Under the pieces are notes generated by a model, which worked only from the letters and a program-made list of their open reading frames with translations, was not told the origin of the DNA and searched no databases. DNA of 64,000 nt from a virus, in the IMG/VR virus record IMGVR_UViG_3300037247_000655, positions 1-64,000 of that record. One strand, 5' to 3'. Made by a program: the position numbers and the translations under genes. This document shows positions 1 to 57,248 of this stretch, piece after piece. The first letter of the stretch is position 1. The number at the start of each line of letters is the position of its first letter.

Positions 1-548
1 TGCGTCCTAGTCGACGTTCCGACCTCGATAATTAAATCCAAGATAGAAGTGGACTATTAAAAAGACTTGCTATAAGGAATGCCTATCGGTATGACATTGC
101 GCCCGTGGTGGCTACTAACCTGATCGACCGACTTTACCGTTACAAGAATCTTCGACTTCCGTGTGACGACTTTCGCTCTCACCTTTGCTGTCTGGCGACT
201 AGGCCTTCAACCAACATTAGTGGCTATTATCGTGCAGACTTTCCGATTCTAGAACTTAGGACGGAATCCTACCACGAACGGATACCCCTTTATCGGGCTT
301 CAGACTGACGGTTTGGCTACTAGACCCCAAGCGTTAGACGATGAGACCATTGACCTACTACGTCAACCCTGACGGTTTACCGCTGACTAGACGGACCCCA
401 CTCTTACCTCCGTGTTGACATTCCACATCAGGACGTTATCGGTCGCCCCATATAATGTCCAGCGTCACTGGACGACTAGAATGTCCAAAGATCCACGCTC
501 GGAGCGACTTAGCTTATGCACCCCGAGCGCGGTACTGCAGACACTCGA
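1..548. other. No recognisable gene
   Basis: I see no convincing coding region. Stop codons, especially TAG inside frequent CTAG tetramers, break every frame, and short ATG frames lack ribosome binding sites. A perfect hairpin lies at 457-473 (GTCCAG, 5-nt loop, CTGGAC). Motif-like copies of TTATCGGAC start near 436. Base composition is visibly richer in G and C than the phage body to the right. It could be the edge of the genome or a non-coding end region. Confidence 0.4.
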
Positions 549-887
549 CTACTTGCCCATATCGTTGAACGCCTTACGAGTAGCACCAACTGTGTTCCTA
601 CGACCGAGAATACTCTCGCCGATTACAGCGGCACTGTCTGAACCGAAACCAGCGTCAACAGGGGGCGTAAACCCTCCGCCATCCTCAATCTGACTTTCCA
701 AGACTTTCCACGCATGACTGAGCGCTGCGATAGCATCGTCCAGACTATCGAAACCAGAAGCAGCATCGACGATACGCTTCGCGTCGTGATAGACGGCCGC
801 GTTAGCCTTGAGCGAAGTCAGATCAAATCCAGCTTCAACGCTCTTTTCGGTAGACGTTCCGACTACTGTGCTATTGGACTGACCCAT
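549..887 (-). CDS. Hypothetical protein, 112 aa
   Basis: The start is supported by a strong ribosome binding site, AACAGGAGATAACT, directly before ATGGGTCAG. The product is small, acidic and Ala/Ser/Gly-rich, predicted mostly helical in the middle, with no signal peptide, membrane span or motif I recognise. It is the last gene of the leftward cluster. A sigma70-like promoter at 1106-1134 lies about 210 nt upstream and could drive it. The start codon sits in a copy of the regional 9-bp motif (CTATGGGTC). Rightward frames over the same bases are shadows. Confidence 0.65.
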   Translation of the reverse strand: MGQSNSTVVGTSTEKSVEAGFDLTSLKANAAVYHDAKRIVDAASGFDSLDDAIAALSHAWKVLESQIEDGGGFTPPVDAGFGSDSAAVIGESILGRRNTVGATRKAFNDMGK

Positions 888-1100
888 AGTTATCTCCTGT
901 TTTTTGGGTCCGCCCCATAACCGAGACTACACCGCCCAATTATAGGACGGACAAGTAGAAACGTTACCGGAACTTCAAATTATACTATACGACCGGATTG
1001 CCCGGAAGTTATCAGACCTGTGCCGGATTCGACACAGATCGGTGTGCCACAAACACACGCCGATGCCAATTTGTTATCGGTGTATGTTGTTTTCGTCTAC
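888..1100 (-). promoter_or_regulatory. Long 5' leader of the 549-887 gene
   Basis: Leftward leader between the promoter at 1106-1134 and the start at 887. It holds motif copies at 912, 940, 964, 1009 and 1074, and a second possible -10 (TATAAT, plus positions about 981-986, read leftward). No gene with a ribosome binding site is seen. Confidence 0.35.
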
Positions 1101-1105
1101 ACTAT

Positions 1106-1134
1106 ATCTTAGGCTTAGTTATAGCAATCGTCAA
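1106..1134 (-). promoter_or_regulatory. Sigma70-like promoter, leftward
   Basis: Leftward TTGACG (plus 1129-1134), 17-bp spacer, TAAGAT (plus 1106-1111). The sequence just after the -10, ATATAGTGTAG, is the same as downstream of the promoter at 3034-3062, which supports both. Confidence 0.6.
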
Positions 1135-1556
1135 GTAGCGCCCGCAAATAGATTTTCCGCGTTTTTGGGCTCCAATCCACGATATTATAGACCAATTACC
1201 GATAATATGCAATTCGCAAAACGTCCGCTTTCTGAGATCACATATCGGTCCAAAGCCTATAATAACCCGCCGTATTCGCGCCAAAGCGTGTTTTTATCAG
1301 CAAGACCTATAATACATATTATGCGCGTCTTAATATGGGGTCCTATAACGCGAAAAAACCTCAAATCGGCGATATTATCGCTATTATGGTATAAAAAAAC
1401 ACGTCCGCAAACGTAAAAGGCTGGTTTCAGGCTTAGAATGGCGATATTATGGGTGAAAAGACACAGGATAAGCTAGTTACCGGCATCGTCCCATATTCCT
1501 CACTGCCCAAAGTCCTATAACATATATGAGTTGTCAAGGAATCGTGTACAACTGGA
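1135..1556. other. Non-coding stretch with inverted motif pairs
   Basis: No credible gene. The stretch contains about fifteen copies of the TTATNGGAC motif or its complement, several as closely spaced inverted pairs, for example 1185-1205, 1242-1262, 1294-1312 and 1557-1570. Such pairs could bind a dimer or form hairpins. Confidence 0.45.
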
Positions 1557-2060
1557 TTATGGTCTGATAATGTTCAGATTTGCCATGGGTCCGAAAACCT
1601 CGATCGCCATTTCATTATAGGCCCTAGCCGCCTCTATCTCAGTCCGATAAGTCTTTCGAGTTGCCTTACCGTGATACTTTATTTGTGCCACCCAAGGGTG
1701 TGATAATCCAGGCTGCTGATAGAAAGAAACGCCCTTATATTGGGACCATTTGGCATCGCTTCTTTTGCGCATATTGCCGTTATTATCGGAAGCTGTTACA
1801 ATGCGCAGATTGGACCGATAATTGTTTAGTCCGTTTTTGTCGATATGGTCCGTATAACATTTGTTGCCGCGCCAAAGTCCCATAACCAGCCGGTGCATGT
1901 AGATTGTTTCTCGGACCTCACGTGGTCCGATACCTACTGTTACAACATAGTGTGTCAAATTGCGCCTAGTCTTGATAAGATGCCAATTATAGCGTCTTAT
2001 AAGCTCAGCATCATCGTTGTCGAAGAAGACCGATAATCCTTTGATTTTCATTTGTCCCAT
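1557..2060 (-). CDS. HNH homing endonuclease with AP2 DNA-binding domain
   Basis: Free-standing homing endonuclease of the HNH plus AP2 type common in phages; it would nick or cut DNA at a recognition site to spread its own gene. The HNH core spans about residues 50-100: a YMHRLVMG helix start, the TDHIDKNGLNN turn with the metal-binding His, and the NLRIVTASDNNGN closing motif. An AP2-like domain follows at about residues 107-165 (YKGVSF, WVAQIKYHGK, EAARAYNE). The start ATGGGACAA coincides with a motif copy (TTATGGGAC). A second ATG four codons later is possible. Confidence 0.9.
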   Translation of the reverse strand: MGQMKIKGLSVFFDNDDAELIRRYNWHLIKTRRNLTHYVVTVGIGPREVRETIYMHRLVMGLWRGNKCYTDHIDKNGLNNYRSNLRIVTASDNNGNMRKRSDAKWSQYKGVSFYQQPGLSHPWVAQIKYHGKATRKTYRTEIEAARAYNEMAIEVFGPMANLNIIRP

Positions 2061-2221
2061 AATGTATTATACGCCCGAACATTGTTGTTGTTCCGATAAT
2101 ATAAGAATTTTCTTATAAATATAGGACCAAGAGCTGCGAATACCCTTAGTCCCATATTGTTAGTCTTGGCTATTTGTTGTCCGATAATGCCCGTTTCATT
2201 CTCCGTTTGTTGTCGGTCCAT
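2048..2221 (-). CDS. Hypothetical protein, 57 aa
   Basis: The frame starts at an ATG (MDRQQ) and ends inside the first codons of the HNH gene (13-nt overlap). The middle is hydrophobic (GLRVFAALGPIF), so a short membrane or amphipathic segment is possible. The ribosome binding site is weak, and the frame overlaps the small basic frame at 2170-2307 in another register, so at most one may be real. Function unknown. Confidence 0.35.
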   Translation of the reverse strand: MDRQQTENETGIIGQQIAKTNNMGLRVFAALGPIFIRKFLYYRNNNNVRAYNTLWDK

Positions 2222-2307
2222 ATCTTTGCGCGAGCTACCGATAACTTCAAGTTTCTGTCTCTCTTGACTTTTCGCCAATTTTTATCGGACCTGCGCTCGT
2301 AATACAT
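2170..2307 (-). CDS. Small basic protein, 45 aa
   Basis: Starts MYYERRSDKNW and is very rich in Lys and Arg, which fits a nucleic-acid-binding peptide. It follows the 2319-2498 gene closely on the same strand. The ribosome binding site is poor (GAAGTGT), and it overlaps 2048-2221 in another frame. Function unknown. Confidence 0.35.
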   Translation of the reverse strand: MYYERRSDKNWRKVKRDRNLKLSVARAKIWTDNKRRMKRALSDNK

Positions 2308-2318
2308 ACACTTCGGTT

Positions 2319-2498
2319 TCACGTTATCGGCTCCTCCGTTTTCCGGACGTTCCCATCTTCGTCCGTATAATCTGCAATGTCCGATACAAATACGGTGGTG
2401 CGCGGAAATTTTATTACAGGATATTCGCCACAATATCCGATAAGTATCCCTTCAAACGGCCACTTATTCAGTGTCACTTTACTACCAACAGGTATCAT
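2319..2498 (-). CDS. Hypothetical protein, 59 aa, SH3/KOW-like
   Basis: I chose the start at 2498 (MIPVGSKVTLNKW) because AAAAGGAGCGATAAT precedes it; the longer frame to 2540 has no such site. The pattern VGSKVTLN, then short beta-like strands ending in a YTDEDGNVR turn, resembles a small SH3-like barrel. It sits between two unknown genes of the leftward cluster. Confidence 0.6.
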   Translation of the reverse strand: MIPVGSKVTLNKWPFEGILIGYCGEYPVIKFPRTTVFVSDIADYTDEDGNVRKTEEPIT

Positions 2499-2520
2499 AT
2501 TATCGCTCCTTTTCCGATAA

Positions 2521-2976
2521 CTACTGTCCGGCTGCGCCACACAATTCCTGAAGAGTTATAGGACACGCGCTCGTATTCGAGTCAGTTGCGTTTCTGTCCG
2601 GTAATCCTACTGTGTCCGCCTCATCCTTATCGGACAATAGCATAGTGCCGATGAAACCGAAGTTCCGCGCCAACCGGGATTTCAGTTGTGCTTTGGCAGA
2701 TACCTTGGAGCGCCCGAAAGCACACATTCCATATAACTTGCTGTGAAACGGACCAACGATTTCCGCCCGATAACCCCAAGGTGTCTTCATGTACCAAAAC
2801 CGGACAGCTCGCCGCTTATCTGCGCCGCATTCGTTTTTTTCGGACGACATTGCCGGTGGATTTATCGGATCGTAATCTGTGTCGAACTTGTGGCTCAATT
2901 TGTTATGGGTCTCTATGTTGGTCCGATCAGATAGTCGTTGCCTGTTTCCGATAACATTGGATACTCTAGTTCCCAT
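2521..2976 (-). CDS. Hypothetical protein, 151 aa
   Basis: The start at 2976 is set by GAGGGGAATAATT just before ATGGGAACT; the start codon again lies in a motif copy. The centre (VRFWYMKTPWGYRAEIVGPFHSKLYG) looks like a compact beta-rich domain. The promoter at 3034-3062 lies about 60 bp upstream, so this is probably the first gene of its transcript. No family recognised. Confidence 0.65.
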   Translation of the reverse strand: MGTRVSNVIGNRQRLSDRTNIETHNKLSHKFDTDYDPINPPAMSSEKNECGADKRRAVRFWYMKTPWGYRAEIVGPFHSKLYGMCAFGRSKVSAKAQLKSRLARNFGFIGTMLLSDKDEADTVGLPDRNATDSNTSACPITLQELCGAAGQ

Positions 2977-3033
2977 AATTATTCCCCTCATCATTATTGG
3001 CGTCCGATAGTTTATCGGTTCGGCCTACACTAT

Positions 3034-3062
3034 ATCATAGCATATCTGCGCCGGGAAGTCTA
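3034..3062 (-). promoter_or_regulatory. Sigma70-like promoter, leftward
   Basis: Leftward TAGACT (plus 3057-3062), 17-bp spacer, TATGAT (plus 3034-3039), followed by ATATAGTGTAG as at the 1106-1134 promoter. It is flanked by motif copies at 3002, 3012 and 3061, so it may be under motif-dependent control. Confidence 0.6.
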
Positions 3063-3199
3063 GCCGATAACCTGTAAATCCAAAAAACCTTTTGTGTCCT
3101 ATAAAAACGCACACAAGCCAAACTGGCTAGCTCAGGTCCGGTAACGTGCAGTACTCGTCCGATAATGATTATGTCGGCGCAAATAGAAGGTCCGATAAT

Positions 3200-3265
3200 C
3201 TATGCAAGAGCTATCGTTACAAGTACGGCCAATAACAGTGTCCGAATCCAGAACATCGTTCTCAT
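3200..3265 (-). CDS. Tiny membrane peptide, 21 aa
   Basis: Begins MRTMFWIRTL and continues as one hydrophobic helix (LLLAVLVTIALA) to the stop. A GGAGA ribosome binding site lies inside the end of the upstream gene, whose stop is two bases before this start, so the two are probably translationally coupled. The role is unknown; single-span peptides are common among phage early and lysis genes. Confidence 0.5.
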   Translation of the reverse strand: MRTMFWIRTLLLAVLVTIALA

Positions 3266-3266
3266 A

Positions 3267-3503
3267 TCATCGGTCTCCGAGGCATAGGTCCAATAAATAT
3301 GTGTGTTGCTCGCACATCCGATAATCAGGCCATCTCTCCGGAGCGTGGAATTCTTTATCGGTCTGCTCAGTGTATTCGATAGTGGCACACTCTTGGTCTG
3401 ATAACCAACGTACTATACTCGACACAAACATGTCCGGTATCACAACAAACGAGGGATGCCCAGTCATTCTAGTCCGATAACGTATTAGTGTCATGTGTCC
3501 CAT
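3267..3503 (-). CDS. Hypothetical protein, 78 aa
   Basis: Start at 3503 (MGHMTLIRY) preceded by GGAGTATAACATT; the ATG lies in a TTATGGGAC motif copy. The product is mixed-charge, with no membrane span or motif recognised. It overlaps the upstream peptide gene by its ribosome binding site region and abuts the downstream one. Confidence 0.6.
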   Translation of the reverse strand: MGHMTLIRYRTRMTGHPSFVVIPDMFVSSIVRWLSDQECATIEYTEQTDKEFHAPERWPDYRMCEQHTYLLDLCLGDR

Positions 3504-3507
3504 AATG

Positions 3508-3594
3508 TTATACTCCAATGTCGTCCCATATTGACCAGATACTTATCGAACCTACAACCACCACCAAACAACATCCGATAATAGCAGCTATCAT
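3508..3594 (-). CDS. Tiny membrane peptide, 28 aa
   Basis: Starts MIAAIIGCCLVVVVGSISIW, a clear membrane helix with a Cys pair that could be a lipobox-like site (IIGC). AGGGGGAACAAT gives a good ribosome binding site, and the ATG overlaps the TGA of the upstream gene (ATGA). Function unknown. Confidence 0.55.
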   Translation of the reverse strand: MIAAIIGCCLVVVVGSISIWSIWDDIGV

Positions 3595-3716
3595 ATTGTT
3601 CCCCCTTTTTCAAGCGTGTCTTTATTCTTGTCGTATTGTGCAATCGTTTTTCGTGTTTTCTTATCGGCTTTCCACCGTCTGATAAGCTCAGCAAAGAAAC
3701 GTCTGATAATATTCAC
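3591..3716 (-). CDS. Small basic protein, 41 aa, GTG start
   Basis: Begins GTG AAT ATT ATC after a GGGGGGG-ACAACT ribosome binding site. The peptide runs MNIIRRFFAELIRRWK and then KADKKTRKT, an amphipathic basic helix followed by a charged tail. Its stop overlaps the next start as ATGA, the arrangement of the whole cluster. It uses a non-ATG start and would be missed by simple gene finders. Confidence 0.5.
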   Translation of the reverse strand: MNIIRRFFAELIRRWKADKKTRKTIAQYDKNKDTLEKGGTI

Positions 3717-3749
3717 AGTTGTCCCCCCCGTGTCAGAACCGAACATTGT

Positions 3750-3866
3750 CTAAGAACCGAACACGATGCCAAGAATATTCTGAAGGTCCGAAAACAAGTT
3801 GCTCAGATTCGCTATCACAATCGTTCCAATCGTTCCTGCGAGGCCGAGTATTGTGGTAATATTCAT
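3750..3866 (-). CDS. Tiny membrane peptide, 38 aa
   Basis: Starts MNITTILGLAGTIGTIVIAN, one hydrophobic helix with GxxxG-like spacing and a polar tail. GATAGGGGACACGACG is the ribosome binding site. It is the first gene after the leftward promoter at 3909-3937. Its 3' end carries a direct repeat of AGAACCGAACA. Function unknown. Confidence 0.55.
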   Translation of the reverse strand: MNITTILGLAGTIGTIVIANLSNLFSDLQNILGIVFGS

Positions 3867-3908
3867 CGTCGTGTCCCCTATCATAAAGTGTATCGTTCAA
3901 CCTAATGG

Positions 3909-3937
3909 AGTATAGGATACAATCCGATCGATTGCAA
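3909..3937 (-). promoter_or_regulatory. Leftward sigma70-like promoter of the small-gene cluster
   Basis: Leftward TTGCAA (plus 3932-3937), 17-bp spacer, TATACT (plus 3909-3914), about 43 bp upstream of the first small gene. Motif copy 3960-3968 lies just upstream. Confidence 0.6.
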
Positions 3938-3959
3938 GTATGGAAAAGATATTTCTTTC

Positions 3960-4221
3960 GTCCGATAACATCATGCGTGCGATGGTCTATAGGGTGCGAG
4001 GTATCGTCCTATAAGTACACAGGCAGAACAAGATGTATGGTCCGATAAAGTTTGTAGATGGCGTCCGATAAGCTCTTGCACGTCGTGCAAGGTTATGTCC
4101 GATAAGCATGTGTTGATAGCATAGTCCGATAAGGTTCGTCAAGCATAGTAGTCCGATAACAAGCTCAGGGGGGGGTAGCCCGATATATAGAATGTCCGAT
4201 AACGGGATAGGGGTCCGATAA
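3960..4221 (+). repeat. Ten direct motif copies in the divergent control region
   Basis: GTCCGATAA or a one- to two-base variant at 3960, 4006, 4040, 4063, 4097, 4124, 4151, 4178, 4194 and 4213, all in one orientation, spaced 16-46 bp apart with three consecutive 27-bp steps. No gene lies here. The block sits between divergent promoters, as iterons or operators would. Confidence 0.75.
4075..4091. promoter_or_regulatory. Perfect 17-bp dyad, likely operator
   Basis: CTTGCAC-GTC-GTGCAAG, 7-bp arms around a 3-bp centre, lying between motif copies. This is a typical shape for a helix-turn-helix repressor dimer site. Confidence 0.45.
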
Positions 4222-4413
4222 CGCGAGGGGGATCGCTCATAGTAGAACCCAAAATCATCCTACCCTACAACTTTTATCACACCATATTTATCGTAGCCCG
4301 CCATTCTCTTCACCACCCTCCTTCTTCCCCGCTAGGGGCCACCCCTTCTTTACACCCTCAAACCAATCGCTTTATCAGACGTGCATTTATCTGAAAAAAA
4401 ATCGGAGGGACGT
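4222..4413. other. Gene-free stretch left of the rightward promoter
   Basis: No gene seen. It contains a C-rich and T-rich segment and a GGGG-CCA-CCCC palindrome near 4334-4345 that may form a hairpin. It separates the motif array from the first rightward promoter. Confidence 0.35.
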
Positions 4414-27068: not shown

Positions 27069-30000
27069 ATGTCAAAAGTAACTCTTAATGAATTACTGCA
27101 TGGTGATCAAGGAAAGTACGGATACTTATTCCCTTACAGGGATCGGGTTCCAGACATAAAGAAACATCTTCTAGATGATTTCAAACAATCCAAATATCCA
27201 CTAGACCAAACACTTATCAGTAAAATGATGGACATAGATTACATCGGGTGGACAGCAAACGTTATACTGGGTATTGATTTGTTTCCTATACAAATTGCCA
27301 TGCTCCAAATGCTATGGAACACTCCATTTCCAATGCTCGTAGCCTGTCGGGGAGGATCAAAATCATGGATGCTTGCTGTTTATGCCATTCTTAGGGGTCT
27401 TCTTGATCCGGGTTCAAAGATTATTATTATTGGTGCAGGTTTGCGACAAGCTAGATTGGTTTTCAATTATATAGACACAATATGGGCCAATTCACCAATA
27501 CTTAGGGGGATTGTCGGTGGAGGAAAAAACGCTGGCCCAAGGCAGAATGTGGATCTTTGTTATTTTAAGATTGGGGATAGTATTATCTATGCACTTCCCA
27601 CCGGGGACGGCACGAAAATTAGGGGCTTCCGAGCTTCTGTGATCATCGCGGACGAATTTGCATGTCTAGATAGAGACACGTTGGTAGAGACAAATAATGG
27701 ATTAGAAAGAATATCGGATATATCTGATCATAAAACTAGTGTCATTAATAGATATGGAGATTTCGAACGAATAGATTCCTTTATTAAAACTCCTAAGACC
27801 GACGTACATGAAATTTCTACAAAATATGGATATGGATTCAAGTGTTCTAGTATACATAAAGTAATGACCACCAATGGGTGGAAATTGGGAAAAGATTTAA
27901 CTAATAATGATTTTCTAGTTATTAAAAATCAGTATGTTTTTCCGGAGTGTTCCGCTGATGATTCTATGACTGAAGATATTGCATGGCTGATGGGTTTACT
28001 GATCTCTGATGGGGATGTCACTCGCAAGCACGGTGTCAGCATCAAGACTATCGATCAGGACCTCGTAGAGCAGGTCATAACTAAGTTTGCGGGGTTAAGT
28101 CCGAAAGTTTATACCAGAGAAGCATATGTCGATAAAAGAGGATGGAAATGCCAAAAGTCATATGAGATACATATCCACAACACCCTTTTTAGGGAAAAAT
28201 TATATTCATTAGGAATAGATTATGTGGGTGTGGCAGATAAAGTGATACCATCTATTGTTTTAAAATCTCCGAAAAAGATAGTTATATCCTTCTTGAGTGG
28301 TTTGTTCGAAGGAGATGGTTCTTGTTTTTTATGGAAGGATCGCAACACGACAAAACTCGGTGTTGCTTATTATACTATTTCGGACGCATTGGCACAGGAC
28401 CTTCAAACCCTCTTGCTGAAACTAGACATTATATCTTCCAGGCAGACAAGGAGAAGTAAATTAAGTGATAGAAAACAGTGGATGTTAAGATGTAATGGAC
28501 GCCATGCTCTTAATCTTGCTGAATTATTGAACGTGCCAAAATGGGACGATATTATACCAAGAGCACAAACATATTTTCACTCAGACGATTACGGTATTAC
28601 TTTTGACAATGGAAGGGGTAAATGGAGGGCGAATGTCGAGTATGGTGGAAAATTACATTACTTAGGTAGATATTTTGACAAAAATGATGCACTTGAGTCT
28701 GTTAAGAACTTCCAAGCTACGCATGACCCATGTGTTCGTGTAAAACTAGTAACCAAATTGCCACATCAAGATCATTTATACGACTTCTACTTGCCAATGA
28801 CACATAGTTTCCATGGCAACGGTTTTATACAACATAATTCTGTGCCCGAAGATGTTTTTGACATAGTTGTCCGTGGTTTTGCGGCTACCGCTAAATCTCC
28901 CATGGAAGAAGCTAAGAAAATTGCATTTGACAAAAAATTGAGTCAAATGGATATTCCTTCCGACATAAAGCAAAAATTGATGGTAGATGATGGCAAGATG
29001 CATGGTAACCAAATAGTATATTCTGGTACTGCATATTATGCTTTTAATCATTTCGCTAAGAAGCATGAAATGTGGCAGGAAATAATTCGCAGCAAAGGTG
29101 ATCCAGATAAAATATCTCAAATATTCGGGGGAGACAGTCTTGTCCCAGATGATTTCAATTATAAGGATTATTGTATTATAAGAATTCCACACACTCATTT
29201 ACCAGACGGACTATTAGATAAAAGACAATTGGCTCACGCCAAAGCAACTCTTCCTCGTAATATATATCTTATGGAATATGGCGCAGTATTCGTTAAGGAT
29301 TCTGATGGGTTTTTCCCCCGTAGTTTAATAGAGGGGTGCAGTGTTGGTCCCAACAAACCTTTAGACACACCAGATGGTGCTGTTACATTCTCTCCCGCAA
29401 TGAGGGGGATTAAGGGTCCCAAGTATGTAATAGGCATAGATCCAGCTGCAGAACGAGATAATCTTGCAGTTGTCATAATTGAAGTATGGGCTAATCATTA
29501 TCGCGTTGTATATTGTTGGGCTGTGAATAAGAAGGAATTCATCAAACGGAAAAAACGTGGATTGATTACAGACGATGACTACTACGCATACTGCTGCTCT
29601 AGGATCAGAGAGATAGTGCGTCTATTCAATCCTATTCGTGTTGAGATGGATAGTCAGGGTGGCGGGTATGCCATTGCAGAAATGCTTAGAAACCATAAAT
29701 TACTAGATACTGATAAGGGCGATTTCCCTATCTATGAGGTGATTGATTTTGAGGATCCCAAGTCTACAGATGGTGAGACGGACGGACGCCACATCTTACA
29801 CCTTATTAAACAGAGTTCTGAATTCAATCAAGATGCTAATATAGCCCTCCATAAAAGCTTTGAAACTCGTACTCTGCTATTCCCAGCTTTTGATAGTGTT
29901 AAAATGTACGCGGCCATCGAAGCAGAAAAGGCTTCTGGTGTAATTTTCGATACATATGAAGAGAATGTCTATAATATCGAAGAATTGAAAAACGAACTTT

Positions 30001-30338
30001 GTACTATACAAATGAGCGAGACAGCTACGGGTAGAGAAAGATTTGATACACCGCAGGTAGTTAGTCCTGGCGCAGTAGAAGGCAGGGCAAGGAAGGGTCG
30101 GTTACGCAAAGATAGGTACACGGCTGTTCTATTGGCGCACAAATATGTTTATGATACAGATATCGCTCCAGACGACAATATCGATTATAACGACGTTGCT
30201 GGCAATATCGTGAAAAGAACCAAAACAGGCAAGGATGAGCCTATGTACCGGGGTGCTGGGGTGGGTAGAATGAGGAATGCAGAGGCTGCGCGTAAAGGGA
30301 CTATTTACAAAGCCATTAAGAGGGGTAAAGCTGTCTAG
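27069..30338 (+). CDS. terL: Terminase large subunit with in-frame intein
   Basis: ATP-driven packaging motor and nuclease. The N-terminal ATPase has Walker A-like CRGGSKSW (about residue 94) and Walker B SVIIADEFA (about 190-198). The C-terminal RNase H-like nuclease carries GIDPAAERDNLAVVII and RVEMDSQGGGYAIAEML with the acidic metal ligands. Residues 199-590 are an intein (separate entry); removing it leaves about 697 aa, normal for a terminase. Extein junction is DEFA-SVPEDVF, just after Walker B. Confidence 0.95.
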   Translation: MSKVTLNELLHGDQGKYGYLFPYRDRVPDIKKHLLDDFKQSKYPLDQTLISKMMDIDYIGWTANVILGIDLFPIQIAMLQMLWNTPFPMLVACRGGSKSWMLAVYAILRGLLDPGSKIIIIGAGLRQARLVFNYIDTIWANSPILRGIVGGGKNAGPRQNVDLCYFKIGDSIIYALPTGDGTKIRGFRASVIIADEFACLDRDTLVETNNGLERISDISDHKTSVINRYGDFERIDSFIKTPKTDVHEISTKYGYGFKCSSIHKVMTTNGWKLGKDLTNNDFLVIKNQYVFPECSADDSMTEDIAWLMGLLISDGDVTRKHGVSIKTIDQDLVEQVITKFAGLSPKVYTREAYVDKRGWKCQKSYEIHIHNTLFREKLYSLGIDYVGVADKVIPSIVLKSPKKIVISFLSGLFEGDGSCFLWKDRNTTKLGVAYYTISDALAQDLQTLLLKLDIISSRQTRRSKLSDRKQWMLRCNGRHALNLAELLNVPKWDDIIPRAQTYFHSDDYGITFDNGRGKWRANVEYGGKLHYLGRYFDKNDALESVKNFQATHDPCVRVKLVTKLPHQDHLYDFYLPMTHSFHGNGFIQHNSVPEDVFDIVVRGFAATAKSPMEEAKKIAFDKKLSQMDIPSDIKQKLMVDDGKMHGNQIVYSGTAYYAFNHFAKKHEMWQEIIRSKGDPDKISQIFGGDSLVPDDFNYKDYCIIRIPHTHLPDGLLDKRQLAHAKATLPRNIYLMEYGAVFVKDSDGFFPRSLIEGCSVGPNKPLDTPDGAVTFSPAMRGIKGPKYVIGIDPAAERDNLAVVIIEVWANHYRVVYCWAVNKKEFIKRKKRGLITDDDYYAYCCSRIREIVRLFNPIRVEMDSQGGGYAIAEMLRNHKLLDTDKGDFPIYEVIDFEDPKSTDGETDGRHILHLIKQSSEFNQDANIALHKSFETRTLLFPAFDSVKMYAAIEAEKASGVIFDTYEENVYNIEELKNELCTIQMSETATGRERFDTPQVVSPGAVEGRARKGRLRKDRYTAVLLAHKYVYDTDIAPDDNIDYNDVAGNIVKRTKTGKDEPMYRGAGVGRMRNAEAARKGTIYKAIKRGKAV
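27663..28838 (+). mobile_element. Intein in terminase, LAGLIDADG plus AP2-like domain
   Basis: Begins with Cys1 (CLDRDTLVETNNGLERI, block A) and ends HGNGFIQHN before Ser+1, the normal His-Asn/Ser splice residues. 392 aa. Block B-like KCSSIHKVMTTNGW; LAGLIDADG motifs at IAWLMGLLISDGDV and VISFLSGLFEGDGS. Between the endonuclease and the C-terminal splicing blocks lies an AP2-like segment (YGITFDNGRGKWRANV, LGRYFDKNDALE). This is an unusual third domain that may help target DNA. Confidence 0.9.
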
Positions 30339-46500: not shown

Positions 46501-47423
46501 TGAATAGAATCGTCCCAGGATATTCGCAGGGCTTTGCCAGATCGTCAAGTGAATCTCAATCACCAGAATTATGGGATGGTTTGGTTGGAGCATGGGTTCC
46601 TGGCTTAGGAGTAACCGGAGATACACTGTTCGACTGGAGCGGTAAGCGACGTCACGGGATTTTTGGCGGAACTAAGGGCGGTGAGTATTTTACCTGGGGA
46701 ATGAATCAAGGGGGTTATTCGCTACTTGGACCTGCACCTGTAGGGAATGGGGCTCTTGCTAACATCGCAATTGGTGATTGGGTTATCCCAACTGGACGCA
46801 TATCAATAGTGGCTCGTGTGTCTAAGATCACAGGTGCGAGCCCCACTGATAGACGAATTATTTCTCGTGCAAGTAGCACTACCAGTGATGATCATGACTG
46901 GATGATTGGCAGTGTCGGATCCCAAGCAACTCAGTTCCGATCTCGTTTTTTTATAGATGGGACAACGCACACAGATATATCAGATGGTATCGTATTCGAT
47001 AATGATCATAATCGATTTTTAGCAGCGACATATGATGGGGCCAATGTACACCACTATCACTACAGGCAAGGTGCGTCCTCCGATTCCACTCCTGTCGTTC
47101 ACAAACAATGGGCAACAACAGGGGATTTGATTGACACAGACAGAGGGCCTCAAACTGTAGAGATAGGCAGAAACCCCGGAGGCACGCCCTATGGTAACTG
47201 GGAAGGTTTAATTTACTTTGTTTATGTTTACGATCGTGCCTTATCTCCAGGTGAAATAGACTCGCTATTCAGTGATAATTATGCACCTTTCAGAATGCGT
47301 AGACAACTTGTCGCTCGTGGCATAGGAAGTACAGGTATAAATGCAGCTATGGATACAGTTGTGGTGGGACATAAACTCTTTGCTACTAGTTGGCACCCCA
47401 ACACATGGAAAGGGAGACCATAA
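46500..47423 (+). CDS. LamG/concanavalin-like virion protein
   Basis: 307 aa. LWDGLVGAWVPGLGVTGDTLFDWSGKRRHG at about residue 24 and NWEGLIYFVYVYDRALSPGEIDSLF at about 235 are the usual edges of a laminin-G-like jelly roll; the centre has GRISIVARV and RFLAATYDGANV strands. Likely surface carbohydrate binding. Its stop overlaps the start of the intein-bearing gene. Confidence 0.75.
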   Translation: MNRIVPGYSQGFARSSSESQSPELWDGLVGAWVPGLGVTGDTLFDWSGKRRHGIFGGTKGGEYFTWGMNQGGYSLLGPAPVGNGALANIAIGDWVIPTGRISIVARVSKITGASPTDRRIISRASSTTSDDHDWMIGSVGSQATQFRSRFFIDGTTHTDISDGIVFDNDHNRFLAATYDGANVHHYHYRQGASSDSTPVVHKQWATTGDLIDTDRGPQTVEIGRNPGGTPYGNWEGLIYFVYVYDRALSPGEIDSLFSDNYAPFRMRRQLVARGIGSTGINAAMDTVVVGHKLFATSWHPNTWKGRP

Positions 47424-49108
47424 TGACCCCTCTTGCTAGTTCGTGTAACTTATTTACCAATGGATACGAACCTAGACCAACTCTGTCGTGTCCAACACTA
47501 GACCCATCAGCATCTATACAGATAACAGATACGTTGATAGGTGTTTATCAGTCCAGAATAGATGCAGTAATAAATCAGTTGGGCAAAAGTGTGTTACTTG
47601 ATTTTGATCCGAACAGGGAGGACTGCCCAAATTGTTGGACTTCTGGGGCAATGATTTCTACACCAAACGGACCGCAACAAATACAGGATATTAAACCCGG
47701 AGACTATGTTTTTTCTCCTAGTGGTAATATCCGTAAGGTTAATGGTGTATTTACCTCACAGTATAGTGGGAGATTATTCAATATTAAATGTTATGGGATA
47801 AGTGCTCCGGAATACATGACAGCAGATCACAAATTGCCCGTTGTTCGAAAAATGAGATCCTTATATACGCAACATCAATGGGTTGATCACGACTATATCC
47901 TAGCCAATCCATGTGTCGAGTTAGTTAAGACAAAAGATATAGAGATAGGTGACGCTTTAATTATGCCAAATGTTCCGCATAATGACAATGATCTAAAAAC
48001 AATTTATATAGATGGATTTGGAGATATTGATTGTACTGATGATCTTTTGAATTTTCTTGGTTGGTGGTTGGCGGAAGGATGTATCCATAAATCTGAATAT
48101 CCACGAGAAATAAATTTTTGCCTATGTGCTTCAAAAGAAAATGAAATAGCAGATTATTTAATAAATATTGGGAGAAAAATATTTGATTTAAAGGGCACAA
48201 AAACATTCAGAACCAATGCTGATAATCTATTGGTGAATTTCTATTCCACTAAATTAACAAAATTTTTGATGAAATTTGGGTTATGTGCGTGGAATAAATC
48301 TATTCCAAATAATTTGTTTACAAAACTATCTCAAAGACAACTTCGTATTTTATTCGATGCATATAGAAATGGTGATGGGAATATTTATACAAATTCAGAA
48401 TTTTCAATTTATAATCGTTATTCAATAATTACTACTAGTAAAATTTTAGCATTTCAAATATTTGAATGTTTAACACGAGATAATTTGATACCATCTATCT
48501 GTTATAAAAAAGGCAGAACTACTATGGATGGAGTCAAACATAGAGAATTTTGGGTAGTAGTTTGGTTACCAGATAGGAAACAACAAAAAAGTTGTGTCAG
48601 GGAAAGTAATATTGGACAACTCTCAATGGTAAGAAATATAGAACAAATAGAGTCTACCATCATTGTATATAATATTGATGTAGATGTAGACCACCAATAC
48701 GTAGTTAACGGCATAGCTTCTCAAAATTGTAACTTTGACATGATTAGAGGAAGATCACGCAACGTATATACACCTGGTGGGCCAAGACCTTTTACACTAG
48801 GTCGTCAGTGCCCCTATTGTAAGGGTAACGGATTTCTAGAAACCCCAGTTCAGAAGTGTATCAGGTGTTTAATACGCTGGAATCCAAAGGATGCTATCGA
48901 TTACGGCATCTCTATTAGTCGCGGAACAAATGTAGTACGATTTAAGACATATCTATACAACTATCCTGATTTGGTACGAGCTAAATTTGCTATATCTAAT
49001 TACGCTAGCCAAGATATAGCTAAATTAAAAGTTCGAAGAATAAAGGATCCAATCATAACAGGATTGAGAGATGACAGGTATTGTATTAGTTTTTGGGAAA
49101 CCATATAG
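47423..49108 (+). CDS. Virion zinc-domain protein with in-frame intein
   Basis: Extein is about 196 aa: a single fibre repeat (NLFTNGYEP), then LSCPTLDPSASIQITD ... AVINQLGK, CPN-(intein)-CNFD, CPYCKGNG and CIRC, ending GLRDDRYCISFWETI. It is a clear paralogue of the C-terminal domain of the 42425 protein, which has no intein. The four Cys pairs suggest zinc. Start 47423 preceded by GGGAGACCATA. Confidence 0.8.
   Translation: MTPLASSCNLFTNGYEPRPTLSCPTLDPSASIQITDTLIGVYQSRIDAVINQLGKSVLLDFDPNREDCPNCWTSGAMISTPNGPQQIQDIKPGDYVFSPSGNIRKVNGVFTSQYSGRLFNIKCYGISAPEYMTADHKLPVVRKMRSLYTQHQWVDHDYILANPCVELVKTKDIEIGDALIMPNVPHNDNDLKTIYIDGFGDIDCTDDLLNFLGWWLAEGCIHKSEYPREINFCLCASKENEIADYLINIGRKIFDLKGTKTFRTNADNLLVNFYSTKLTKFLMKFGLCAWNKSIPNNLFTKLSQRQLRILFDAYRNGDGNIYTNSEFSIYNRYSIITTSKILAFQIFECLTRDNLIPSICYKKGRTTMDGVKHREFWVVVWLPDRKQQKSCVRESNIGQLSMVRNIEQIESTIIVYNIDVDVDHQYVVNGIASQNCNFDMIRGRSRNVYTPGGPRPFTLGRQCPYCKGNGFLETPVQKCIRCLIRWNPKDAIDYGISISRGTNVVRFKTYLYNYPDLVRAKFAISNYASQDIAKLKVRRIKDPIITGLRDDRYCISFWETI
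47633..48727 (+). mobile_element. Intein in virion zinc-domain protein
   Basis: 365 aa from Cys1 (CWTSGAMISTPNGPQQI) to VVNGIASQN before Cys+1. The penultimate residue is Gln, not His, a known but less common variant. Block B-like YMTADHKLPVV; LAGLIDADG motifs at LLNFLGWWLAEGC and LRILFDAYRNGDGN. Inserted between two Cys of a zinc site, so the unspliced protein could not form it. Base use is more AT-rich than its host gene. Confidence 0.88.
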
Positions 49109-54721: not shown

Positions 54722-55363
54722 ATGCCAAAATTAGTCGATTTAATTGGGCAAAGATTTGGAAGATTGCTGGTAATAGAACCTCATTATAGTAGCAAATACA
54801 AAAGAGTTCTATGGCTATGTCAGTGTGAATGTGGGAAAGAAAAAATTGTTTTGGGTTATAATCTCAAAAGTGGCAATACACAAAGTTGCGGGTGTTTAGG
54901 TAAAGAAGGAAATCATGCAATACACGGTCACCATAGAAGAGGGAAAGCAACCAGAGAGTACAAATCATGGGCTTCCATGAAAGAACGATGCACTAATCCC
55001 AACCACAAATATTGGAAGAATTATGGTGGTCGTGGAATTACGGTTTGTAAGAAATGGATGGAATTCTCTAATTTCCTTATGGATATGGGAGAAAGACCTT
55101 CAGGATGTACGCTCGAACGGATAAAAAACGAAAAGGGATATTTTAAAAAGAATTGCTATTGGGCAACACGAAATCAACAACAGAGAAACACACGAAGGAA
55201 TCTCTATGTTTCATACGCAGGGGAACGATGGCTTTTTATAGAATTGTGTGAAAAATTTAATATGCCTCGTCAACTTGTGTATGGTAGATATTATGGGCTC
55301 TATTGGACTCTGGAAGAAGCCCTAATAACCACCGTTGGGGAAAAGAGAAAAAGAAATGATTGA
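54722..55363 (+). CDS. HNH-like phage endonuclease with zinc finger
   Basis: 213 aa. The family pattern is complete: IGQRFGRLLVIE, LCQCECG, SCGCLGKEG, YKSWASMKERCTNP, YKNYGGRGITVCKKWMEF and NFLMDMGERPSGCTLERI. It belongs to a large group of phage-borne HNH-like genes usually treated as homing endonucleases. It ends inside the start of the DNA ligase gene. Confidence 0.75.
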   Translation: MPKLVDLIGQRFGRLLVIEPHYSSKYKRVLWLCQCECGKEKIVLGYNLKSGNTQSCGCLGKEGNHAIHGHHRRGKATREYKSWASMKERCTNPNHKYWKNYGGRGITVCKKWMEFSNFLMDMGERPSGCTLERIKNEKGYFKKNCYWATRNQQQRNTRRNLYVSYAGERWLFIELCEKFNMPRQLVYGRYYGLYWTLEEALITTVGEKRKRND

Positions 55364-57248
55364 TATCAAACGATTGGAAAAAGCGTCAGAAGCCTATTAT
55401 TCTGGTAATCCACTAATGACCGATGCAGAATTCGATATGGCCATTGCCGAATTACAGGAAAGTGATCCTGATAGTTATTTTCTTAAACGTATCGGAGCGC
55501 CCGTTCCTGGTGTGTCGAAAGCTAAGCATGCCATACAGATGGGGAGTCTGAATAACATACATGACGAAAAAGAATTTCGAACTTGGGTGCCTAGCGATGG
55601 ACCCTATATTTGTTTGTCTCATAAACTTGATGGTTCATCTTTGGAATTAGTTTACAAGGATGGTCACTTTATACAGGCAATAACACGTGGGGATGGTGAA
55701 GTCGGGGAAGACGTTACCAGAAATGTCCTAGCCTCGAAGAATGTCCCATTGTCTATCAATCCACTGATTGTATCTGTTCGATGCGAATGTTTGATACTTA
55801 AGGACGATTGGGAAAACCATTTCGAGGGAGACGCTAATCCTCGCAATTCTGCTGCAGGTACACTCCGTCGCCACGATGGTCGCAATGCTGAATATCTTAG
55901 GTTCTATGCTTTTGATGCAATAATAGATGAGGCAAAAAAAACCCCAGGGAATTCGCTCTTTACTGTGTCTGATATGGATACATTAGATATGCTGTCTCTA
56001 TGGTTCCTAACTCCATCTCGTAAATGGTCCAATGATCCATCGACTATGATAAGTTGGTATAAAAAAGAAGAAGAACGTAGAGACTGTCTATCGTATGAGA
56101 TTGATGGTATAGTGGCTAAAATTGATGATCGCCAGGCGTCTTTTAAAATGGGCATCGTAAATGGTCACCCTAAAGGACAAGTAGCTATAAAATTCAAACC
56201 CCGTGGTGGTGAGACCGTATTGAGAAGTGTAACGTGGCAAGTTGGTCATACGGGGGTTTTGTCTCCGGTAGGTATAGTTGATCCAGTTGGTGTTGGAGGG
56301 ACTACCATACGACGTGTTACATTATGCAATATGGATGAGATAGATCGTCTTGGTATAGCTATTGGGGATACTATAGAGATCATCAGAGCTTGTGATGTTA
56401 TCCCAAAGTTATCTAAAATGATAAAAAAAGGTTCTAATAGAAAACTTATTCATCCTCCCCTTTCTTGTCCTGCATGCTGCCTGGCAACAACAAGAGATGG
56501 TGCGCATATTCGATGTAGAAATCATGAATGTACCCTCAAATCTTATCATCGCGTAATGAATTGGGTTAAAAAACGCAACATCCTCAACGTAGGAATAAAA
56601 CTGATAATAGCAGCAAAAATAAAAACCATTTCTCAATTGTATAAAACTAGTATGGATGAATGGGAAGATGTAAGAATTAGTAATCGTATATTTGGTGAGA
56701 AGAGGGCAAAGAAGGTAATTGATGCTCTAGAAAAATCCAAAATTGTTTCATTGCCAGATTTCTTGGGGTCTCTTGGAATCAAGGGGGTCGGTAGATCTTT
56801 GGCGTCTGGTTTGTGCGAGCATTTTAGTGGTCTTCCAGATAGTCAATTAACACTTAAAGATATTTTTTGGCTTAAAGAGCAGGATGTTGCAGGACACGAG
56901 AAGTTTGGTAAGATCAGAGCATCTGATTTCTGTGATTGGTTACAACAACATAAGGTTGAGATTGAGGTATTAGCTGATATGATGGATATACAGTATGAAA
57001 CGAATGACGAGAAGGGTATTTTTGATGGAGAGGTAATTTGTTTTACTGGTAAGTCGCCAAAACCTCGCCCAGAAATGATCCGTTTAGCGGAAGCTGCTGG
57101 TGCATTAGTGTCTAACTCTGTTAATAGCAATACCACCATATTAGTAGTGGCTGATACGAACAAGAAGTCGTCTAAGTCTATTAGGGCGGGTCAATTTGGA
57201 ATCAGAATTATGTCAACCCAGGATTTCATGATTCAGGTAGATGGTTGA
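55356..57248 (+). CDS. ligA: NAD-dependent DNA ligase
   Basis: Seals nicks using NAD. 630 aa: adenylation motif SHKLDGSSLELVY (lysine about residue 87), RGDGEVGEDVTRN, OB-fold, a four-Cys zinc finger (CPAC ... CRNHEC at about 370-390), HhH region (LGSLGIKGVGRSL), and a C-terminal BRCT domain (EVICFTGKSPKPRPEM). All domains of a bacterial LigA are present. Start 55356 overlaps the upstream HNH stop. Confidence 0.95.
   Translation: MIDIKRLEKASEAYYSGNPLMTDAEFDMAIAELQESDPDSYFLKRIGAPVPGVSKAKHAIQMGSLNNIHDEKEFRTWVPSDGPYICLSHKLDGSSLELVYKDGHFIQAITRGDGEVGEDVTRNVLASKNVPLSINPLIVSVRCECLILKDDWENHFEGDANPRNSAAGTLRRHDGRNAEYLRFYAFDAIIDEAKKTPGNSLFTVSDMDTLDMLSLWFLTPSRKWSNDPSTMISWYKKEEERRDCLSYEIDGIVAKIDDRQASFKMGIVNGHPKGQVAIKFKPRGGETVLRSVTWQVGHTGVLSPVGIVDPVGVGGTTIRRVTLCNMDEIDRLGIAIGDTIEIIRACDVIPKLSKMIKKGSNRKLIHPPLSCPACCLATTRDGAHIRCRNHECTLKSYHRVMNWVKKRNILNVGIKLIIAAKIKTISQLYKTSMDEWEDVRISNRIFGEKRAKKVIDALEKSKIVSLPDFLGSLGIKGVGRSLASGLCEHFSGLPDSQLTLKDIFWLKEQDVAGHEKFGKIRASDFCDWLQQHKVEIEVLADMMDIQYETNDEKGIFDGEVICFTGKSPKPRPEMIRLAEAAGALVSNSVNSNTTILVVADTNKKSSKSIRAGQFGIRIMSTQDFMIQVDG

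Follow-up and report, generated by a model that had tools for sequence, protein, structure and literature searches.

An array of short half-sites near the start of an uncultivated virus genome is, as we read it, fairly likely to be a Xer-type site-specific recombination locus, in which one dif-like core lies within a kilobase-scale field of accessory half-sites. The genome is IMG/VR record IMGVR_UViG_3300037247_000655 (165,526 bp), and the window analysed here is its first 64,000 nucleotides, with the array at 436-4221 (Table 1). Judging from the sequence, the roughly 70 extra half-sites probably serve to gather Xer recombinase on the phage genome. A sequence-only reading of the window had noticed the array; the core site and the recombinase, whose gene lies beyond the window at ~128.9-129.8 kb of the record, were absent from it.

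With a matrix built from the array itself and a cut-off score of ≥9, positions 436-4221 hold 72 half-sites (18.9/kb), in agreement with the ~70 packed copies counted before, and with the same matrix the rest of the window (4222-64,000) has 37 (0.62/kb), the final 15.4 kb of the record 4 (0.26/kb). Dinucleotide-shuffled versions of the array (n = 100) contain a mean of 2.58 and a maximum of 8. An equal density was thus found neither in the remaining window, nor at the record end, nor in the shuffles. As the array itself supplied the training set of the matrix, weight falls on a count of words made without it: the whole record contains 15 exact GTCCGATAA, every one within 1642-4221, and 0 copies of a reversed control word; when one mismatch is allowed, there are 94 matches to GTCCGATAA vs 36 to the control word. 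The middle of the record (beyond the window and before the last 15.4 kb) is covered by these word counts and not by the matrix scan. The array does stop at 4221, with one weaker copy beyond it, at 4372.

Written as TTATCGGAC, the half-site varies at base 5 (C 0.70, A 0.14, G 0.12) and keeps TTAT, as had been proposed; base 6, also thought variable, changes little (G 0.89, A 0.10), and the supposedly constant GAC is looser at its outer letters (A 0.68, final C 0.74), the most constant letters being TTAT and GG. Copies do occupy coding and non-coding DNA alike, since 41 of the 72 lie inside candidate leftward open reading frames (ORFs; total span 2,347 bp), where they occupy all reading frames. 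The flanks show no conservation between neighbouring copies of the window array. Unrepeated flanks together with the use of all reading frames rule out a satellite as well as a peptide repeat, and a tandem repeat was rejected on the unlike flanks. These patterns in the letters support the view that the copies are protein recognition sites, locally concentrated within and between genes.

The core consists of an 11-bp arm, a 6-bp centre and a second 11-bp arm, with palindromic inner parts (ATAA...TTAT), which is the layout of a Xer site. A half-site (≥7) followed after six bases by TTA[TC]G has a single match in the 64-kb window, at 1304. Both orientations of the half-site occur and GTCCGATAA is commoner on the plus strand (52 of 72), as had been observed, and the sign of this bias flips at the core, at ~1304. 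The candidate genes in the array run leftward to the left and to the right of the core alike; the strand bias therefore tracks the core and not transcription.

The array recurs in related phages and, as discussed below, in part in unrelated ones. Three exact GTCCGATAA copies at gaps of 5-35 bp were sought in IMG/VR and found in 63 stretches, vs 11 for the reversed word and 7 for a shuffled word; in 55 of the 63 the flank identity is <0.6, hence their copies are not tandem repeats. Contigs that share the array genes of the window (chiefly those for the 112-aa and 157-aa proteins) and its portal protein are referred to here as the clade. Of 13 records searched, 10 encode the portal, among them that of the window; in the nine others it is 51-75% identical. 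Among phage records it otherwise matches only Bacillus phage G (23%). In bacterial genomes the three-copy search gave 81 stretches, of which 80 were examined and were mostly tandem repeats. The clear exception (L185) is in CP070695, a 'Candidatus Heimdallarchaeota' metagenome-assembled chromosome record (G001), where ~65-94 kb carry an array, homologs of the array genes and a portal 65% identical to that of the window; this relative is probably a phage that entered the record by assembly or binning.

Of the 14 clade loci, window included, 10 possess a core, never more than one, which lies at a distance of a few hundred bp from the 112-aa gene. Six of these cores were known first, and all four newly fetched loci then proved to have one, with TTATGCTAG. 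Across the clade, TTA[TC]GC stands six bases after a half-site in 10 cases, and none of the other gaps from 0 to 24 has more than 2. The columns of the core arms vary less between loci than those of the flanks (the commonest base has a mean frequency of 0.86 vs 0.60 and 0.53). In the ten core loci the half-sites upstream of the core (to -1.3 kb) number 52 in the same and 82 in the opposite orientation, and those downstream 492 and 118 (P = 1e-20, Fisher's exact test, a value that overstates independence because the clade loci are related). The half-site density is ~17-29/kb to +2.4 kb and near background by ~+3 kb, and the left edge of the field lies at ~-1.3 kb. The spacing, described earlier as irregular, is indeed so but is not random: among same-orientation pairs, distances of 24-27 bp are the commonest, and just 3 pairs are closer than 15 bp (ten clade loci, window included). 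A helical phase of ~5 modulo 10.5 bp is weakly favoured in three locus sets, with differing best periods. Half-sites of the window are also kept in place in relatives, namely 27 of 59 in L060, 25 of 61 in L052, 19 of 71 in L345, 14 of 70 in L346 and 11 of 71 in L151, and shifted alignments of the same five relatives keep on average 0.6-1.0.

The half-site has the letters of the XerC arm of some bacterial dif sites. In the dif table of PMC2731167, the sites of Anaeromyxobacter (ACGTCCGATAA-TATGGA-TTATGGTAACT) and Myxococcus (AGGTCCGATAA-CATGCG-TTATGTAAACT) hold exact GTCCGATAA in their XerC arms, and base 5 of this arm is C or T in Geobacter, Desulfovibrio and Syntrophus; the variable base 5 of the phage half-site takes the letters (G, C, T) of these deltaproteobacterial arms. 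The same table lists TTATGC second arms for Magnetospirillum, Bartonella and Xanthomonas. The canonical dif pattern gave 3 matches in 43 genomes of many phyla, including one of seven planctomycete-titled genomes. A looser pattern, GTCCGATAA-N6-TTATG, was used for a count in 199 planctomycete genomes (Planctomycetota, the phylum of the Phycisphaerales-titled genome G069); it is present in 94 of them, in single copy in 86, and the reversed control word has matches in 2. Among 12 planctomycete sites that were fetched (L377-L388), 9 have ACGTCCGATAA and 11 have TTATGT, from which the TTATGC/TTACGC of the clade differs, and each has 0-2 other half-sites within 1 kb and no half-site field. We suggest from these sequences that the single-copy site is a candidate dif for the phylum, where an earlier survey (Kono et al., PMC3025954, partial text) predicted dif in 0 of 1 planctomycete.

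Sites of the form ACGTCCGATAA-N6-TTATGT also occur in at least 120 viral stretches. In 34% of 98 distinct viral sites among the matches listed, the outer bases of the second arm, which the search pattern left free, are all canonical (A, A and T), vs 2% of 378 control TTATGT. No more than three additional half-sites lie within 600 bp in any of the 116 viral loci examined among the matches listed (L389-L504; the array-bearing L107, L114 and L120 were left out), which shows that such a site does not routinely come with an array; these loci are possibly dif-integrated phages or host pieces. The hosts of the array phages would be planctomycetes and allied hosts, and half-site clusters may in this way suggest hosts for uncultivated phages.

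The window's record and four relatives each encode one enzyme with a tyrosine recombinase domain (PF00589), 5 of 24 records in all; none was found in four shorter clade records. The enzymes are 293-297 aa long, their best NCBIfam profiles are XerD (1.7e-62) and XerC (1.4e-61), and the catalytic R, K, HxxR, H and Y of Xer-type tyrosine recombinases are invariant in 5 of 5. The gene order is thyX, Xer, clpP-like and sigma-70-like in L255 (~127.4-130.9 kb of the record) and similar in relatives; L254 has two further ORFs, HNH-like by eye, among these genes. To the clade of this enzyme belong 23 loci (L264-L286), of which 17 records were searched for arrays; of the other six loci, four are in records already known (G003, G004, G005 and G007), and L267 and L280 were outside the search. 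Arrays are present in 5 of the 17 (G028, G002, G036, G037 and G039). G032 has only a short half-site cluster at the contig edge, G027 (123 kb, with a Xer identical to the window's) has no array and may lack that part of the genome, and the ten remaining records, which are 7.6-65 kb fragments, show no clear half-site excess. More distantly, 18 records searched, of 56 Xer loci, include none with a clade-like excess.

The geometry of the field suggests how such a locus could work. About 70 isolated XerC-type arms extend ~0.9 kb to one side of the core and 2.9 kb to the other, mostly pointing away from it. They would be bound by host XerC and possibly also by the phage Xer, and cooperative filling at a pitch of ~25 bp could build a large nucleoprotein domain, which might load recombinase onto the core and decide which cores may pair. 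In the least certain step, the reaction would circularise the incoming genome or resolve multimers of the phage genome, much as Cre/lox of phage P1 or cer or psi of plasmids do; alternatively, the phage may be inserted at the host dif. The likeliest product appears to be a phage genome that is circularised or resolved from dimers.

Besides the relatedness of the clade loci, several observations weigh against recombination as the function of the array. Some concern the core. ATAA-N6-TTATG occurs once in the window, where 1.5 are expected by chance; the window's core is thus unremarkable by this count and its weight rests on the relatives. In four of the 14 clade loci (L127, L143, L076 and L185) no core was found, and in 3 of the first six cores the second arm is TTACG, which was admitted by loosening the TTATG rule. 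When up to 3 mismatches are allowed, the canonical dif pattern matches 4 times in 10 records, never at a clade core, and the control matches 7 times; it misses the clade cores because their second arm (TTATGC/TTACGC) departs from TTATGT. Others concern the arm and the enzyme. The XerC arms of Bdellovibrio and Desulfotalea, the other two deltaproteobacteria in the table of PMC2731167, are different, and a common proteobacterial XerC arm, TTCGCATAA, was found only as tandem repeats (5 stretches). The phage recombinase is under the curated cut-offs for XerD (211.4 of 329.6 bits) and XerC (208.4 of 335.15 bits), and by its sequence we call it Xer-like, not XerC or XerD. A 127-bp direct repeat common to both record ends closes the record map into a circle, and on this closed map the recombinase gene is ~36-40 kb from the array. 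PF00589 was found in 0 of 15 records of array-bearing groups outside the clade; with no tyrosine recombinase and mostly no core there, recombination is not the whole function in those phages.

These groups include YuA-like contigs, grouped by shared genes, and the T7-like L142, L100 and L123, grouped by terminase. The terminase of L120 is 54% identical to those of Sphaerotilus phage SN1 and Pseudomonas phage YuA, and that of the T7-like L016 ~38% to known phages. In seven YuA-like loci (L108, L044, L152, L107, L120, L114 and L115), short arrays surround a core of the form GTCC[GT]ATAA-N6-TTATGT. Past the core, the half-sites of L108 and L044 run '-++++++-', an order nearly matched in L152, L107 and L120 and followed more loosely in L114. 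The YuA-like L017, L078, L092 and L147 have no core, and apart from the seven loci and L020 the T7-like and other array-bearing groups outside the clade have clusters without one. Over 48 loci a gap of 6 is the commonest before TTATG, in 11 loci, the next commonest gap being in 6. The half-site spacing outside the clade peaks at 14-17, 24-26 and 30 bp. The simplest account of the same clusters in unrelated phages would be one shared binder, a host factor that is most likely XerC.

Because coreless clusters exist in other phages, the main rival is that the half-sites act as a decoy, which would soak up host XerC and so block dimer resolution or division, or shield other phage DNA, recombination being secondary or absent. 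The clusters in L142, L100 and L123, with neither tyrosine recombinase nor core, fit this, and 72 sites look far beyond the need of one core. A sponge, however, requires no core, no polarity flip, no fixed borders and no Xer of its own, and no arrays of TTCGCATAA were found; we regard it as unlikely for the window. Decoy and recombination could also be combined: unrelated phages, probably of planctomycetes or allied hosts, would each cover DNA with half-sites as a XerC decoy against dimer resolution, and one clade would have added its own Xer and core so that the captured XerC works for the phage. We offer this broader scheme tentatively, as possible but doubtful.

Transcription control is distinctly improbable. 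The sites would here be repressor or roadblock sites on an early leftward operon, in the manner of stoperators. The array does span small leftward ORFs, the right-arm sites are mostly TTATCGGAC on the coding strand, and the clusters of L142, L053 and L131 adjoin genes in the same relative orientation; the polarity nevertheless tracks the core, reversing to its left where the 112-aa gene stays leftward, and the same arm stands singly in the planctomycete dif-like site. The least probable of the readings that we weighed is that a non-Xer phage protein, such as the 157-aa product, binds the array, the dif likeness being a coincidence or a captured host site. The 157-aa family is kept in the clade, and the low-confidence model of this protein has a small strand core and one helix, with no significant fold match in the Protein Data Bank (PDB; best E 0.11, a dsRNA-binding domain). 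Its homologs among 148 sequences are in the clade only, yet unrelated phages share the half-site and a similar pitch.

The parallels drawn in the sequence-only reading find no support. For parS, the ParB_N domain (PF02195) was found in 0 of 14 records (13 with arrays of this kind, and G026 with a tandem-type cluster), and the control signal was found in 10 of 14 genomes. An iteron origin would have direct repeats at a constant pitch; the pitch here varies, and one 28-bp core of dif architecture stands within the array. Mycobacteriophage stoperators are many asymmetric sites with a strand preference, dispersed over the genome, and to our knowledge they are not core-centred and have no relation to dif. 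The phage array likewise comprises many asymmetric sites with strand preference; it is confined to one 3.8-kb block, its polarity flips at the core with no change of gene strand, and its letters are those of a dif XerC arm. Promoter elements were also set aside: CCGATAA resembles the flagellar sigma-28 -10 box, and a sigma-70-like gene lies near the phage Xer, but the flanks have no conserved -35 and both strands are used.

Among known recombination systems, integron attI has extra integrase-binding repeats (two) beside its core site, in contrast to the ~70 half-sites of the phage, whose enzyme fits XerD/XerC far better than an integron integrase. As far as we know, Cre falls outside the Xer-type enzymes and no half-site field accompanies loxP. 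P1 with Cre/loxP is similar in being a large phage whose own recombinase keeps its genome monomeric (PMC2409434, partial text). In cer of ColE1 and psi of pSC101, 200 bp of accessory DNA beside the XerC arm is bound by ArgR or ArcA with PepA; they are alike in that a Xer site is flanked by DNA that must form a nucleoprotein complex (PMC11724359, partial text), and different in that the phage field consists of XerC-type arms, lies to both sides of the core and extends over several kb. With dif and XerCD-FtsK the locus shares the 28-bp site of 11+6+11 and the XerC arm of some hosts, and its motif polarity inverts at the site, as the orientation of KOPS does (same source, partial text); KOPS, in contrast, guide FtsK and are not XerC arms, and the 12 planctomycete sites have no half-site field. 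CTXphi and other dif-using filamentous phages also carry a dif-like site on phage DNA, but they are filamentous and use host XerCD (PMC3025954, partial text), whereas the present phage is 165 kb long with terminase, portal, its own Xer and an array. Xer sites are known as single sites of 28-30 bp, sometimes with 200 bp of helper DNA (PMC11724359, partial text), and we recognised no report of XerC-site arrays or of dif sites like these in phages, in a literature coverage that leaves out subscription papers and preprints. If correct, a core amid ~70 half-sites over kilobases, with reversed polarity and a plan kept in ten phages, would represent a new form of tyrosine recombinase control.

Table 1. 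Positions of the array, its core and the genes within it (window coordinates)
Feature	Position	Strand	Remarks
Half-site array, GTCC[GTC]ATAA / TTAT[CAG]GGAC and near variants	436..4221	52 on +, 20 on -	Matrix score ≥9, n = 72
Left arm of array	436..1303	both	Half-sites mostly opposite to core (2 same, 5 opposite, score ≥9)
112-aa gene next to core	549..887	-	Homologs in 12/14 clade loci, window included; no family match
Inverted half-site adjoining the XerC-type arm	1294..1302	-	TTATCGGA here in several relatives
dif-like core, 28 bp	1302..1329	+	Arm AAGACCTATAA (1302-1312), centre TACATA (1313-1318), arm TTATGCGCGTC (1319-1329)
Right arm of array	1330..4221	both	Mostly core orientation (50 same, 15 opposite at 1304-4221, core's arm counted)
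HNH endonuclease gene within array	1557..2060	-	phrog_99, E 9e-27; PF13392 just below cut-off
157-aa gene within array	2521..2994	-	Homologs in 12/14 clade loci, window included; no family match
Small ORF within array	3267..3518	-	Homologs in clade members
Right end of array, 8 exact GTCCGATAA	3960..4221	all +	Word search; spacings 19-80 bp; upstream of leftward genes

The 112-aa protein has a helical model with no significant PDB fold match, and neither it nor the 157-aa protein has a match among 50,697 phage records. Elsewhere in the window, a terminase-like protein (27069-30338) is split by an intein with LAGLIDADG homing-endonuclease domains (PF14890, PF14528), a 572-aa protein (47390-49108) has a weak Hint-domain match (PF13403, below cut-off), and an NAD-dependent DNA ligase (PF01653, PF03120, BRCT) is encoded at 55335-57248. 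The GC skew switches sign at ~4.3-4.5 kb, at the right end of the array.

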